A stretch of DNA of 64,000 nucleotides from Adineta ricciae. Lineage: Eukaryota; Rotifera; Eurotatoria; Adinetida; Adinetidae. The stretch lies in contig CAJNOJ010000006.1 in the NCBI GenBank assembly GCA_905250025.1, positions 620,001 through 684,000 of the forward strand, given 5' to 3'. Each line of letters begins with the position of its first letter. Within the stretch, counting starts at the first letter, position 1. The translations under genes were made by a program, and so were the position numbers. The notes beneath the pieces were generated by a model. The model had not been told where the DNA came from. It ran no database searches and saw only the letters and a program-made list of their open reading frames with translations. Shown in pieces: positions 27,328 to 46,564 of the stretch.

Positions 27328-27753
27328 GTTTTAATAAATAGAAATCAAAGTAAAAACATCATTGCGAAAGACACATGAAAAACCACAAAAAGGTGTGATG
27401 TTCGTCATTTTCAAAGACGTTGACGTTTCTGTCAACAACCGGGAGAGGAGAACTGGAATTCTCAATGCCAACTCACACAGATGTCAGAATGTAACTATGA
27501 TGTCGCATGTCGAGAGAGATGTGGTTTATTACCGTAAGTATTTCAATCAATGCCGATAGATTCAAATCGAGCAAAAGGAAAACATTAATCCAATCAAAAT
27601 TGTGATTTGTCCTATTCATCCAGTAGGTTCATGGATTCCTAACTGATAAACTATTATGAGGCAAGCAAATCATGCAGATATTCCATCTATTTATTTGAGC
27701 AATCACAATAAAATGAAAGAGAAAATATAACTTCTTATGCTTTCGTCGGTGCA

Positions 27754-28081
27754 TCAAACACCACATTTGCATGCTGAACAATTACATTCCATACAGTCAC
27801 AACTTGGATCACAGTTCGATTTTCCTGCTACAAAATAAATGAGACGTTACTGTAGAGAGACAGAAAGTGATTTTGTTGTGTGCAGATACATACGACAACA
27901 CGATTGGCAGTCGCATGTACACGAGCAATTGTCTTGGCATGCACAGGAAGCATCTTGGCAAGAGGTACCACATCCACATCCACATCCTCCAGCTAAAGAG
28001 AATGAGGCGATGATATACATTAAGGTGATAAGAAGGAGAAAGCAGAAGAGTGTTACCTTTGTGTTGTGAAGTTCCGGGCAT
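27754..28081 (-). CDS. Metallothionein-like Cys-rich protein, copy A
   Basis: A small metal-binding protein of the metallothionein type, expected to chelate Zn, Cu or Cd in the cytosol. Exons 28081-28057, 27992-27894 and 27827-27754 join to 198 nt, or 65 residues. It has 19 Cys in C-x-C, C-x-x-C and CC arrangements, no aromatic residues and no signal peptide. Exon 1 encodes MPGTSQHK, exon 2 a run of 12 Cys starting GGCGCGCGTSC, and exon 3 seven Cys ending NCSACKCGV. It differs from copy B by an additional Gly-Cys unit in exon 2 and by two or three residues at the end. An MRE core and TATA box lie upstream in the arm. The family name rests on composition and Cys pattern, because metallothioneins diverge too much for motif identity. 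Confidence 0.85.
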
Positions 28082-28179
28082 AATGTTGAGTCGTGAGAAG
28101 ATAAGTGGCGAAGTGAGCTGGAAGGTGATGTAATGTAATGGAGTGAGTGAGTGAGTGAATGAAGGTGGATAGCGTGACT

Positions 28180-28186
28180 TTTTATA
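28180..28186 (-). promoter_or_regulatory. TATA box of metallothionein copy A
   Basis: TATAAAA on the minus strand, about 100 bp upstream of the copy A start codon. It is mirrored at the same distance in copy B. Confidence 0.7.
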
Positions 28187-28224
28187 GGTACGGAAACTGT
28201 ATAGAAAAAGTGTTTTTGCGCGGG

Positions 28225-28231
28225 GGGTGCA
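28225..28231 (-). promoter_or_regulatory. Metal-response-element core upstream of copy A
   Basis: TGCACCC on the minus strand fits the MTF-1 metal-response core TGCRCNC and lies about 40 bp upstream of the TATA box. The flank (TGCACCCCCCGCGC) is GC-rich in an otherwise AT-rich region. Binding by MTF-1 is inference from established metallothionein regulation. Confidence 0.6.
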
Positions 28232-28270
28232 GTTGTCGTCATTGAACGGCACCCCCGTCATCGATAGCCT

Positions 28271-28673
28271 TCACGATGACAATCGTGTGTTCTACCAGCA
28301 TATTAGTGCACTTACGAAAGCCAGACATACTTATCACTTAATAAAGAGACCCTGTGCTCCGTGATGTACACGGCAAATGATCGAACAAAGAAGGGCAAAG
28401 GGAACCGAAAAACTAGAGAGCAAGGATATATTCTAGACGAGACGAACAAAAAAAACTTGGCTATTTCTTCATTTATTGGCCACATAATTTGTGTACATAA
28501 AATACATCATTTTATTGGTTTTTAGTTAGTGTATCAACATCGTTGTTGTTGCAAAAACAGTTTATTTTTTGCACGGATTATTGTCAATTACGACTCATTA
28601 GAAGAATGACATGCAACTAAACCTACAAGCCGTGACGGAAAAGATTGAAGGAAATCTCATCGTCTGATAGATA
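28271..28673. other. Spacer between the inverted-repeat arms
   Basis: About 400 bp of AT-rich unique sequence forms the loop between the two metallothionein promoters. I see no exon. It may act as a shared upstream control region. Confidence 0.5.
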
Positions 28674-28719
28674 AATATCAAGGCTATCGATGACGGGGGT
28701 GCCGTTCAATGACTATAAC

Positions 28720-28726
28720 TGCACCC
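28720..28726 (+). promoter_or_regulatory. Metal-response-element core upstream of copy B
   Basis: TGCACCC fits the TGCRCNC metal-response core, about 38 bp upstream of the TATA box, and continues into CCGCGC. It is the mirror image of the site at 28225-28231. Confidence 0.6.
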
Positions 28727-28763
28727 CCGCGCAAAAACACTTTTTCTATACAGTTTCCGTACC

Positions 28764-28770
28764 TATAAAA
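28764..28770 (+). promoter_or_regulatory. TATA box of metallothionein copy B
   Basis: TATAAAA about 100 bp upstream of the copy B start codon, identical in position to the copy A box. Confidence 0.7.
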
Positions 28771-28868
28771 AGTCACGCTATCCACCTTCATTCACTCACT
28801 CACTCACTCCATTATATTACATCACCTTCCAGCTCACTTCGCCACTTATCTTCTCACGACTCAACATC

Positions 28869-29190
28869 ATGCCCGGAACTTCACAACACAAAGGTAATAC
28901 TCTTCTGCTCTCTCCTTCTTGTCATCTTAATGTATATCATCGCCTCATTCTCTTTAGCTGGAGGATGTGGATGTGGTACCTCTTGCCAAGATGCTTCCTG
29001 TGCATGCCAAGACAATTGCTCGTGTACATGCGACTGCCAATCGTGTTGTCGTATGTATCTGCACACAACAAAATCACTTTCTGTCTCTCTACAGTAACGT
29101 CTCCTTTGTTTTGTAGCAGGAAAATCGAACTGTGATCCAAGTTGTGACTGTATGGAATGTAATTGTTTATCATGCAAATGTGCTGTTTGA
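28869..29190 (+). CDS. Metallothionein-like Cys-rich protein, copy B
   Basis: Exons 28869-28893, 28958-29050 and 29117-29190 give 192 nt, or 63 residues with 18 Cys. The Cys lie at 12, 14, 18, 23, 25, 29, 31, 33, 35, 38 and 39 in exon 2 and at 45, 49, 51, 54, 56, 59 and 61 in exon 3. There are no Phe, Tyr or Trp and only one His. The exon boundary falls between an 11-Cys block and a 7-Cys block, suggesting two metal clusters joined by PGKSN. Exon 3 starts at a tandem acceptor (TAG followed by CAG), so use of the second AG would drop one codon. Promoter features mirror copy A. The metallothionein call is from composition and Cys spacing; no close named homologue comes to mind. Confidence 0.87.
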
Positions 29191-29892
29191 TGCACCGACG
29201 AAAATAAGCGACGTGATTTAGCCATATATCTGCGGAAGTTCAACTGCGTATTACCCTTGATTTTTTCTGTAATCCATAAAGTGTTGCTTTTTCTTGACCA
29301 AACTGCAGGAACAAATAAAGCTTCAGACTATATCCAAAGCGAATGCATGGACATATTATAGTCGGCTATTATGAGAATAGGTCAGCCTTTTTCTCTCTCT
29401 GGCTCTCAAGTGGATCACATCGTATTGCTCAGTAAAGGTGATCTGCTAATCTCTAGAACATTTCTTGATAACTATCAAAATGAATCACTTCTGGTTGTTT
29501 TCATATATCTATTTATCACTCAAACTTGAATGCCATTAGACGTATTTATCATGGTATATTCGGTATTAGTTAATTAACTGTAATCACTATGGTTAAGACA
29601 TATAGTACGATCATTCAACTACCTACACATCTGATAATTTTCAGCACATTCTCCATTGGCAATTCCACCTTGGAACATTGTCACGGTTTGCATCCGTTCC
29701 GTAGGATTCTTTTTCGAAGTCAAGGAGATAATGCATTAAATATGACTAGACTAACGTAAACAGGATATTAATCAACACTAAATAGAACAGTCTGTCAAAT
29801 GTATGATTGATACGATAGGAAACGAAGTTGTCATTTGTTTTATTACGACTAGAAAGTAATCAATCGAATGCAAATGCACACTCACACACACG
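29191..29892. other. Intergenic spacer between copy B and stomatin
   Basis: Two genes converge on about 700 bp of AT-rich sequence. AATAAA near 29315 could serve copy B. No exon or RNA gene is seen. Confidence 0.55.
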
Positions 29893-32270
29893 TTATCGTT
29901 TATACAATGGTACAGCCTGTAAAAGTTCAACAGGAACAGGAAAAACAATTGTTGAATTGCGTTCGGCAGCAATTTGTGTTAGTGTTTGTAAATATCGTAG
30001 TTGCATAGCAATAGGTGACTCATTTATGATATCAGCTGCTTCTTTCAAACCGCGACTAGCTTTCATTTCACCTTCAGCAGCAATAATCTTTGCACGAGCA
30101 TCTCGAGATGCTTCCGCTTCGGCTGCCATTGCCTTTTGTAATGCCACTGGAAGACGTACATCTTTAACTTCAACCCGTTCGACTTTAACACCCCAGGGAT
30201 CTGTTGCTTCGTCGAGGGCAGTCTATAGAAAGCAACTATCGACATAAAATTATTTTTTTAGGAGATACTTCTACATGCCTGGATAACAGTATCGATCTTA
30301 TCACGTTCAGCCAGAATTTCATGAAGTGTTTTTGTACCTAAAACCTATAATCAACAAACAAAGAAATATCTCTCGTGATAGATTTATGAAACTAAGCTAT
30401 TGAAATACATTTCGAAGTGTAGTTGCCGCGAGGAGTTTCGTTGACTTGGCCGCATCTTCGACATTCGTTATTGAAATGACTGCATTGAATATTCGAAAAT
30501 AAACGACAGCATCGACGGCTACGGTTACACTATCCCGTGTTAGAATTTCTTGCGGTGGCACATCAAACGTTACTGTTCGAAGATCGACTTTGCTGTATGT
30601 ATCGATACATGGTAGAATGAAGAAGAGACCGGGCCCTAAATAGAATCGACATAGAATAGCTGAAATCCCTCAGTCATTTCGAGGTCATTGCAAATCTCTG
30701 TACTCTGAGTGTCGATTTCAACCATTGAATATCAATCTCCAGATGGTCGTCTTGGTTCTCAGTGTTAATTATCATCTTTCAGCTTAGATGACAATGAAAT
30801 GACACGTCATTATTTTTATCGCTTACTTACCACGTGCTCCATCGGCGAGGATTCGGCCGAGTCGGAATATAACTGCCCGTTCGTATTCTTGCACAACCTA
30901 ATCGTTAGATATGATGTACTTTTGTGGGTTTTTTACTTCGAAATTAATATACTTTCAGACAGAAACATAATGACAATGGAAATGTAATGACGACAAGAGC
31001 ATAACTGAGAACAATAAGTATGCTAAAGAAATAACCTGATTGTTCAGCTTTGTCTTTAAGATCTAAATAGAGAGAAGAAGACAATTCATAAGTGTTATAG
31101 TCTTTTGGCTAGAAAGCCTCTCGTTATTTTCAGTACAATCTTTAACATAATCACAATAATCGAGCAGGGAGACGTTGTTTTTCTGTTCAAACTAATAAAA
31201 ATGATTCAAGTGGAAAATTGTCAATTAGAGCTCTATTATTATCATCTAGATCTACAATCTAATATTGAATTCACTGAAAATATTAACAAACAAAAATTTT
31301 ACCACGTCCATACGACTGACTGCGACTTGTCGGAGGCGAGTATTGATCTATACGAATTCGAGATGGTGATATGTGATGTGATCGGTGTGTTGTTGTTGGA
31401 CGTTGTATTTCTGTATGAGTAGTCCGTCCTGAACTAGGATGAGCATCGCTTTCGTCATATCGATGTCTCATTATTCTGATGGATATAATTTTCTTCTTTT
31501 CTCTTACCAATTCATTTCTCGTCGGATCGTCATCAGATATTAGCAAAAAATGTCGTACATACGCTCTTTTCAGTGCGAATAATCTTGCGTTATAATTGGC
31601 GAAACGTGCACATTTTCTCTCTTATCGTATGAAGCATACGTCGAAGACATCATTTTTTTCTACGGTAGATCTTTCTTAGCCGTGCTCAACTACATATACG
31701 TAGAGAAATATATATACATAGAGAGAGACACGATTTGGTAGACATTAACAGAGTAAATGTCATTCGGGAACGAGTATATATATTACCATCGTATTATAAT
31801 TATTAGATTGTTTCCTCTCTATCATGTCACAATTAAGGTACAGAAGAAACAATTAGCAAACAGTACAAGGGAGACAATTTTATACGAAGAATATGTTGGA
31901 CAATATCTCTGCATATCTTTTCTGTCTGACAACTCGATTTTACCTTGGCATTAGCACAAATATAGTTTTATATGATGGAAACAAAGGGAAAACACGAGAA
32001 ATTTAACATACCATCCGTGACTGGATGTACAAATAAACGAGGTGGAATGATAAATGAATATCGAGAAAGACGCCGAGCCACATTTCCATCCGTTCGTTGA
32101 TTTCCCGGTATCATCGGAGTCAGATAATCTTCTGCTGACATTGAACCAAACTGTGTTCGATATACATCCGCACGATTTGATGCTCGCCGAACACCGTACT
32201 GAGCGGCATAAGTAAAACCACTCGTTGCTGCACCACCGTTGTCTGCATCGAGTGGAGCTGTATCCAGCAT
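29893..32270 (-). CDS. STOM: Stomatin (band 7/SPFH-domain membrane protein)
   Basis: A hairpin-anchored SPFH protein that oligomerises at the cytosolic face of the plasma membrane and tunes ion channels (compare MEC-2 and UNC-1). The minus-strand order is a variable N-terminus, the membrane hairpin ([19 protein letters not shown], about 31039-30955), then [17 protein letters not shown]. Next come [18 protein letters not shown] and [20 protein letters not shown], then [17 protein letters not shown], and the last exon with [33 protein letters not shown] and [14 protein letters not shown]. Match to animal stomatins is near-continuous. Two possible first coding exons exist, 32270-32012 ([13 protein letters not shown]) and 31471-31303 ([13 protein letters not shown]). 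Both end in phase 1 at good donors, so both can splice to the hairpin exon. Confidence 0.92.

Positions 32271-42844: not shown

Positions 42845-46564
<3,720 letters not shown>

Follow-up and report, generated by a model that had tools for sequence, protein, structure and literature searches.

A palindromic head-to-head pair of metallothionein-like genes in the bdelloid rotifer Adineta ricciae and gene conversion between the arms of a sister palindrome

Two complete genes for metallothionein (MT)-type proteins lie head to head in a short palindrome of the Adineta ricciae genome, within a stretch of 64,000 nucleotides that is referred to here as the window. In the reading that we favor, to which we assign a probability of about 70%, this palindromic layout is old in the MT subfamily concerned and its arms have been homogenised by gene conversion, a process that is recorded directly in a sister palindrome on contig C17, supported in a second one on contig C769, and inferred for the window. 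Throughout, C6 designates the window locus, and C17, C769, C330, C43 and C1 designate other contigs of the same genome.

The two window genes (Table 1) each carry two phase-1 GT-AG introns (64 and 66 bp), and the gene models agree with the original prediction of head-to-head three-exon genes with equal intron lengths that encode proteins of 63 and 65 residues with 18 and 19 Cys and no aromatic residues. The predicted distribution of cysteines was recovered as well, exon 2 holding 12 (gene A) or 11 (gene B) and exon 3 holding seven, with none in exon 1. Cysteine makes up 29% of the residues, mostly in CxC and CC motifs, and each protein contains one His and no Phe, Trp or Tyr. Long open frames that read through the introns were considered and dropped, as the introns recur at the same phase-1 positions in paralogues.

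The genes occupy an inverted repeat (27734-29208) whose arms, aligned base by base, are identical in 516 of 538 columns and differ by 13 substitutions and nine gap columns in three indels, in keeping with the near-identical arms of about 0.53 kb around a loop of about 400 bp that had been predicted. The arms span the promoter, 5' leader, exons and introns and stop about 18-20 bp beyond the stop codons. The 3' flanks of the two genes do not match, and each gene has its own AATAAA, which starts 59 and 124 bp past the respective stop. The predicted near-identity over introns and promoters holds as a 96% identity over the whole arm, but the introns still differ at 6 of 130 sites; the coding exons differ by three substitutions, all of them amino-acid changing, and one in-frame 6-bp indel. 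There is no N in the palindrome, the Ns of the window lying at 45077 (27 bases) and 47336. An inverted-repeat search of the 64-kb window (seed 14, at least 60 bp, arms within 5 kb) listed only the MT palindrome, in two pieces, and no second one. A wider scan took in 209,608 bp selected for proximity to MT genes and to their ohnologs, and hence not a random sample; of the four inverted repeats in it that reach 150 bp and 85% identity, three are MT pairs.

Table 1. Positions of the palindrome, its genes and promoter elements in the window, and of related MT-like genes elsewhere in the genome
Feature	Location	Strand	Basis or remark
Left arm (promoter and gene A)	27734..28271	-	95.9% over 538 columns vs right arm
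Right arm (promoter and gene B)	28680..29208	+	95.9% over 538 columns vs left arm
Loop, 408 bp	28272..28679	.	Alignment to C17/C769 loops no better than chance
Gene A, 65 aa, 19 Cys	27754..28081; exons 28081-28057, 27992-27894, 27827-27754	-	Gene model; phase-1 introns at positions also found in single paralogues
Gene B, 63 aa, 18 Cys	28869..29190; exons 28869-28893, 28958-29050, 29117-29190	+	Gene model
TATA-like box (TATAAA), gene A, 105 bp upstream of ATG	28181..28186	-	Promoter scan
TATA-like box (TATAAA), gene B, 105 bp upstream of ATG	28764..28769	+	Promoter scan
Inverted GCACCCC pair, promoter A; 18 nt apart, one within TGCACCC	28224..28255	-	Motif search
Inverted GCACCCC pair, promoter B; 18 nt apart, one within TGCACCC	28696..28727	+	Motif search
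Head-to-head MT pair	Window (C6)		
Head-to-head MT pair	C17 254623-255932		
Head-to-head MT pair	C769 3199-4503		
Single MT gene C17a	C17 253.5-253.8 kb		
Single MT gene C17b	C17 256.2-256.5 kb		
Single MT genes C330_69k, C330_70k	C330 at 69.5 and 70.2 kb		
Two truncated MT copies	C769 1913-2032 and from 5766		

Metallothioneins lack aromatic residues and are disordered when metal-free. The window proteins have the sequence characters by which the class is described, namely fewer than 100 residues and about 15-30% Cys in CC and CxC motifs (PMC9781358), and we regard their genes as encoding MT-like proteins that are putative metal binders. Metal ions would most likely be held by an N-terminal cluster of 11 or 12 Cys and a C-terminal cluster of seven, with a predicted capacity of about six divalent ions per chain. 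The original prediction of MT-like genes outside the known families was borne out by profile searches, in which the two window proteins matched no family at E up to 10 in Pfam and NCBIfam and six paralogues, which together with the window pair make up eight of the nine distinct proteins, matched none at E up to 10 in Pfam; bias correction for Cys-rich sequence may mask such matches. The lack of matches to MT family profiles is what would be expected if these were Cys-rich proteins of another kind, such as disulfide-bonded structural or secreted peptides that bind no metal. This alternative appears improbable, given the 29% Cys content largely in CxC and CC, the absence of Phe, Trp and Tyr, the lack of a hydrophobic leader visible by eye in the sequence, the dN/dS of about 0.15 between the C17 and C769 genes, and a Cys spacing in three single paralogues that is exactly that of a mollusc MT domain and arose in none of 20,000 shuffles of each. 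Searches against PDB returned one chain at E 6 for gene A, which was judged a chance match, and none for the C330_69k protein.

When the 1033 contigs of the genome (130.5 Mb) were queried with exons 2 and 3 and with the paralogues, at least 10 full MT-like gene models encoding nine distinct proteins came to light (Table 1), all counts being lower bounds. The window genes are placed in this family because they align with the paralogues, the gene A protein being 54% identical to a C17 protein and 49% to the protein of the left C769 gene (C769L), and not because of their Cys spacing. Intron 1 is present in all 10 models in the same phase, and intron 2 is missing in the C17 pair, the C769 pair and C330_69k; elsewhere it separates the two Cys domains. 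The distance between the start codons of a pair is 788 bp in the window, 819 bp on C17 and 790 bp on C769. Single Ns on C769, at 2033, 3629 and 5766, fall at the exact junctions of MT copies with other sequence, and for this reason the layout of C769 may be partly scaffolded. A decayed copy from which several Cys have been lost lies at C1:15814-15924 (15.8 kb).

The closest likeness of the family, whose proteins are small, with 26-30% Cys and no Phe, Trp or Tyr, is to the MTs of mollusks, which share these characters and have domain spacings resembled by those of the paralogues (PMC9781358, PMC7796288). The gastropod beta1 domain is given as [CxC]x3-4[CxC]x3Cx5-6[CxC]x3[CxC] (PMC7796288), and three of the four single paralogues have exactly this spacing (the 0 of 20,000 shuffles mentioned above), with one gap changed in the fourth. 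The C17 and C769 pairs deviate from it in one of eight gaps, and their 12-Cys N-terminal domain shares nine of 11 gaps with the 12-Cys alpha domain of Nautilus, [CxC]x5[CxC]x3Cx4[CxC]x3[CxC]x3[CxC]x2C (PMC9781358), a degree of agreement reached by 0, 0, 0 and 1 of 20,000 shuffles. The window genes fit neither pattern: four of eight gaps differ from beta1, with 4,918 and 4,474 of 20,000 shuffles as good (about 1 in 4), which is no better than chance, and five of 11 differ from alpha, with 379 and 308 of 20,000 as good (about 1 in 50-65). The original remark that the Cys pattern matches no nameable MT class is therefore not fully right: taken by themselves the window genes fit neither pattern, but their paralogues relate it to the mollusc class. 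The window genes are the most derived of the family, lacking the CxC of exon 1. The family also differs from mollusc MTs in that its second domain has seven Cys, whereas the six mollusc domain types described have nine, 10, 11/12 or 14, and in that the beta1-like domain is N-terminal here and C-terminal there (PMC9781358, PMC7796288). Because spacing can converge, the mollusc likeness is a resemblance and not a proof of descent.

That palindromes of this type are old, with arms homogenised by gene conversion, is seen at C17. Under simple inheritance, the arms of homologous palindromes should differ as much within a locus as they do across loci. The C17 and C769 palindromes have loops that align as homologues in the same orientation, with 240 identical columns out of 366 and a score of 199, as against a maximum of 53 in 200 shuffles; one palindrome was therefore ancestral to both. 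Nevertheless, the arms resemble each other more within a locus than across these homologous loci: identity over ungapped sites is 389/428 within C17 and 442/448 within C769 (461/473 within C6), as against 316-331 of 398-423 sites in the four C17-to-C769 arm comparisons. Synonymous divergence behaves in the same way, with NG86 dS of 0.028 and 0.061 within the C17 and C769 pairs and 0 within the window pair (dN 0.020), as compared with 0.915 and 0.984 between the right C17 gene and the left and right C769 genes, respectively (dN 0.139 and 0.134). These values give C17 and C769 a dN/dS of about 0.15; for the C6 and C17 copies the ratio is 0.25, with dS close to saturation. AU tests reject the grouping of the two left genes (p 9.9e-6) and that of the two right genes (p 6.1e-5) of C17 and C769, although in the tree neither pair is well supported as a clade (76/71 for C17 and 56/25 for C769). 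Independently of C769, a trace is found within the C17 palindrome, in which seven consecutive 40-column blocks covering leader, intron and exons are identical in 279 of 280 columns, and a stretch on the loop side of the same arm is identical in 137 of 198 (69%; 0 of 200 shuffles as good). Such a core beside such a stretch denotes an old palindrome in which a tract has recently been converted. Arm-to-arm conversion is supported at C769 too.

At the window, conversion between the arms is proposed by analogy, since its loop is unalignable to the others (a test for homology with the loops of C17 and C769 was negative) and an older, more diverged shoulder was not found in its palindrome. The analogy draws on the converted sister pairs and on the similar spacing of the start codons. 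Of the original suggestion of recent duplication or ongoing conversion, conversion is supported as a process that acts on such pairs, as seen at the sister locus C17, and is probable for the window pair itself. A serious competitor, which we consider possible but clearly less probable than conversion, is that the window pair arose by a recent inverted duplication of one MT gene and has undergone no conversion since. The arms end sharply on both sides with no diverged shoulder, a single event would account for the 13 substitutions and three indels that separate them over 538 columns, the loop has no alignable counterpart, and the ohnologous region on C43 lacks the pair, all of which suit a recent duplication. 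However, the same layout with near-equal ATG spacing recurs at C17 and C769, and there the palindrome is older than the likeness between its arms.

The single Ns at the copy junctions of C769 also raise the question of whether one gene could have been assembled twice in opposite directions, or the arms evened out by polishing, and artificial palindromes produced by erroneous scaffolding are a risk pointed out in a survey of asexual animals (PMC7953838). An assembly artefact is nevertheless very unlikely, as the window and C17 arms have different 3' flanks, some site differences and no N, and polishing would hardly raise an arm of 69% identity to 279/280 in the gene core only.

As for the wider genomic setting, a protein-level comparison shows C17 (230-280 kb) to be collinear with C330 (50-90 kb) across many genes, and the window shares genes in order with C43 (102-119.5 kb), one inversion apart, C43 being its ohnolog; the tetraploidy of bdelloids leads one to expect ohnolog pairs of this kind (PMC5916493). 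The G+C content of the window, 33-40% when taken in 2-kb windows, may be set beside the 35.6% given for A. ricciae (PMC5916493), and both this agreement and the two collinear ohnolog pairs fit a rotifer origin of the MT genes. The C330 stretch (50-90 kb) contains two single MT genes and no palindromic pair, the 17.5 kb examined on C43 contain no MT-like frame and no GCACCCC (a promoter element considered below), and synteny of the window with the examined stretches of C17, C330 and C769 was not found. The inversion relative to C43 spans about 29.5-42.7 kb of the window. One of its breakpoints falls in the gap at 27331-29895, set against C43 107.5-109.0 and 116.99-117.3 kb, and this gap, flanked by open frames that end at 27,330 and begin at 29,896, is filled by the MT palindrome. 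This position, the recurrence of the layout at sites without common neighbours in the stretches compared, and the absence of the pair from the examined C330 and C43 stretches are features that a foldback-type mobile element carrying MT genes among C6, C17 and C769 would explain. We hold such an element to be highly improbable, in that no target-site duplication is seen by eye at the window copy and only three pairs were found. Outside the MT genes, C769:10854-11861 matches C330:52.6-53.6 kb at the protein level, with about 40% identity over 308 residues.

Returning to an old, converting palindrome as the preferred reading, the two window genes, each with its own promoter, would supply a small metal-chelating protein in nearly equal amounts, and the mirror arrangement would let one copy serve as a repair template for the other, so that conversion would keep two matching copies per locus and the loci would diverge under purifying selection. 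Metallothioneins, MT duplications and converting palindromes are already known kinds. The Y palindromes of human and chimpanzee and the palindromes of Adineta vaga, as presented in PMC7953838, likewise have arms whose similarity within a locus exceeds that across homologous loci, and conversion-like tracts with a sharp edge, as at C17; those described here are set apart by single-gene arms of about 0.3-0.6 kb and loops of about 0.4-0.7 kb. Annotation-based surveys give zero palindromes for A. ricciae (PMC5916493) and for three bdelloids other than A. vaga (PMC7953838), and a 2020 survey states that gene conversion rates have not been estimated directly for rotifers (PMC7953838). If the preferred reading is correct, the locus would be a small natural system in which to test gene conversion driven by palindromes, in animals thought to lack conventional sex, and would add gene models, Cys patterns and a putative promoter element of a rotifer-type MT family that, being undetected by Pfam, profile-based surveys would miss. 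Among the matches listed in the literature on metallothionein in rotifers, bdelloids and Adineta, no paper on a rotifer MT gene was found; literature on MT genes with concerted evolution and gene conversion yielded none, and that on metallothionein with head-to-head and gene conversion yielded matches on other subjects only. In an acanthocephalan study, two MT-like sequences are reported as most similar to those of an acanthocephalan and several rotifers, and the PF01439 row of its Pfam table reads 1/1 for one column, 0/1 for a second and 0 for the remaining nine (PMC12274423).

The candidate promoter element, GCACCCC, occurs in eight of the 10 MT promoters, in two or three copies each, with 19 sites within 450 bp of the ATG; they lie at -124 to -289 overall and at -148 to -168 in the window genes. 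The background, 192,530 bp taken from the same contig stretches, has it on neither strand. The promoters of C17b and C330_70k lack it, and as the promoters of a pair are near-copies, the ten are not independent and reduce to five lineages that have the element and two that do not. Repeated GCACCCC upstream of the TATA box probably drives transcription of the genes, and metal induction could act through it. The metal-responsive element (MRE) bound by the factor MTF-1 has the core TGCRCNC. MT control by MRE and MTF-1 resembles the present arrangement in its repeated G+C-rich sites just 5' of the TATA box, and the one TGCACCC per window promoter fits that core; it differs in that the leading T is absent from 14 of the 19 GCACCCC sites. 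TGCRCNC itself is present in six of the 10 MT promoters, five of them by way of a GCACCCC site, and 67 times in the 192,530 bp of background, or about 0.16 per 450 bp.

MREs are located at -173 and -127 in Biomphalaria, where two of the three form a bidirectional palindrome (PMC5578137). The zinc-finger region of MTF-1 is 84.0-85.7% similar between a sipunculan and eight other species (PMC11242308). With a provisional human MTF-1 zinc-finger query, and in genes split by introns, 17 zinc-finger matches of 40-49% identity and none above 49% were obtained, and as a lead MTF-1 may be missing or much changed in this genome, although MT genes are present. A likeness of kind only is offered by MTCM1, an MT-specific promoter motif of the Tetrahymena subfamily 7a genes that is also repeated and partly inverted but is another motif, from a ciliate, in which apparently neither an MTF-1 ortholog nor a canonical MRE was found (PMC1808422). 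A broader proposal, advanced tentatively and with considerable doubt, is that a presumably asexual animal keeps its MT genes as miniature gene-converting palindromes, a single-gene analogue of Y palindromes, preserved over a synonymous divergence of about 0.9, near that of ancient ohnologs, and equipped with a GCACCCC switch read by a factor other than MTF-1.

Across 130 Mb, inverted GCACCCC pairs (5-35 bp apart) occur at seven places, three of which are MT promoters, with none in the control. Pairs in the same direction occur at 20 places, three of them at MT promoters, with eight in the reversed-pattern control, and for this reason only the inverted pair can be considered specific. Nine of the 20 same-direction places represent one dispersed repeat-like sequence: a 27-bp sequence, GCACCCCATTT...TTTGCACCCC, is found at nine places (C98, C133, C161, C233, C302, C311, C324, C376 and C602) and is probably a dispersed repeat. 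A 17-mer from promoter A, searched in the genome with up to two mismatches, found only itself. Away from the MT genes, GCACCCCC-like sites are clustered, much as in MT promoters, on C325:67400-69200, at about 775-945 of that stretch, upstream of a different open frame (from 1444 of the stretch) that is zinc-finger-like by eye and has sub-threshold Pfam matches only. Finally, one of the seven inverted GCACCCC pairs, on C67:169200-171200 at about 947-970 of the stretch, lies beside a minus-strand open frame whose product resembles an arrestin-domain protein.
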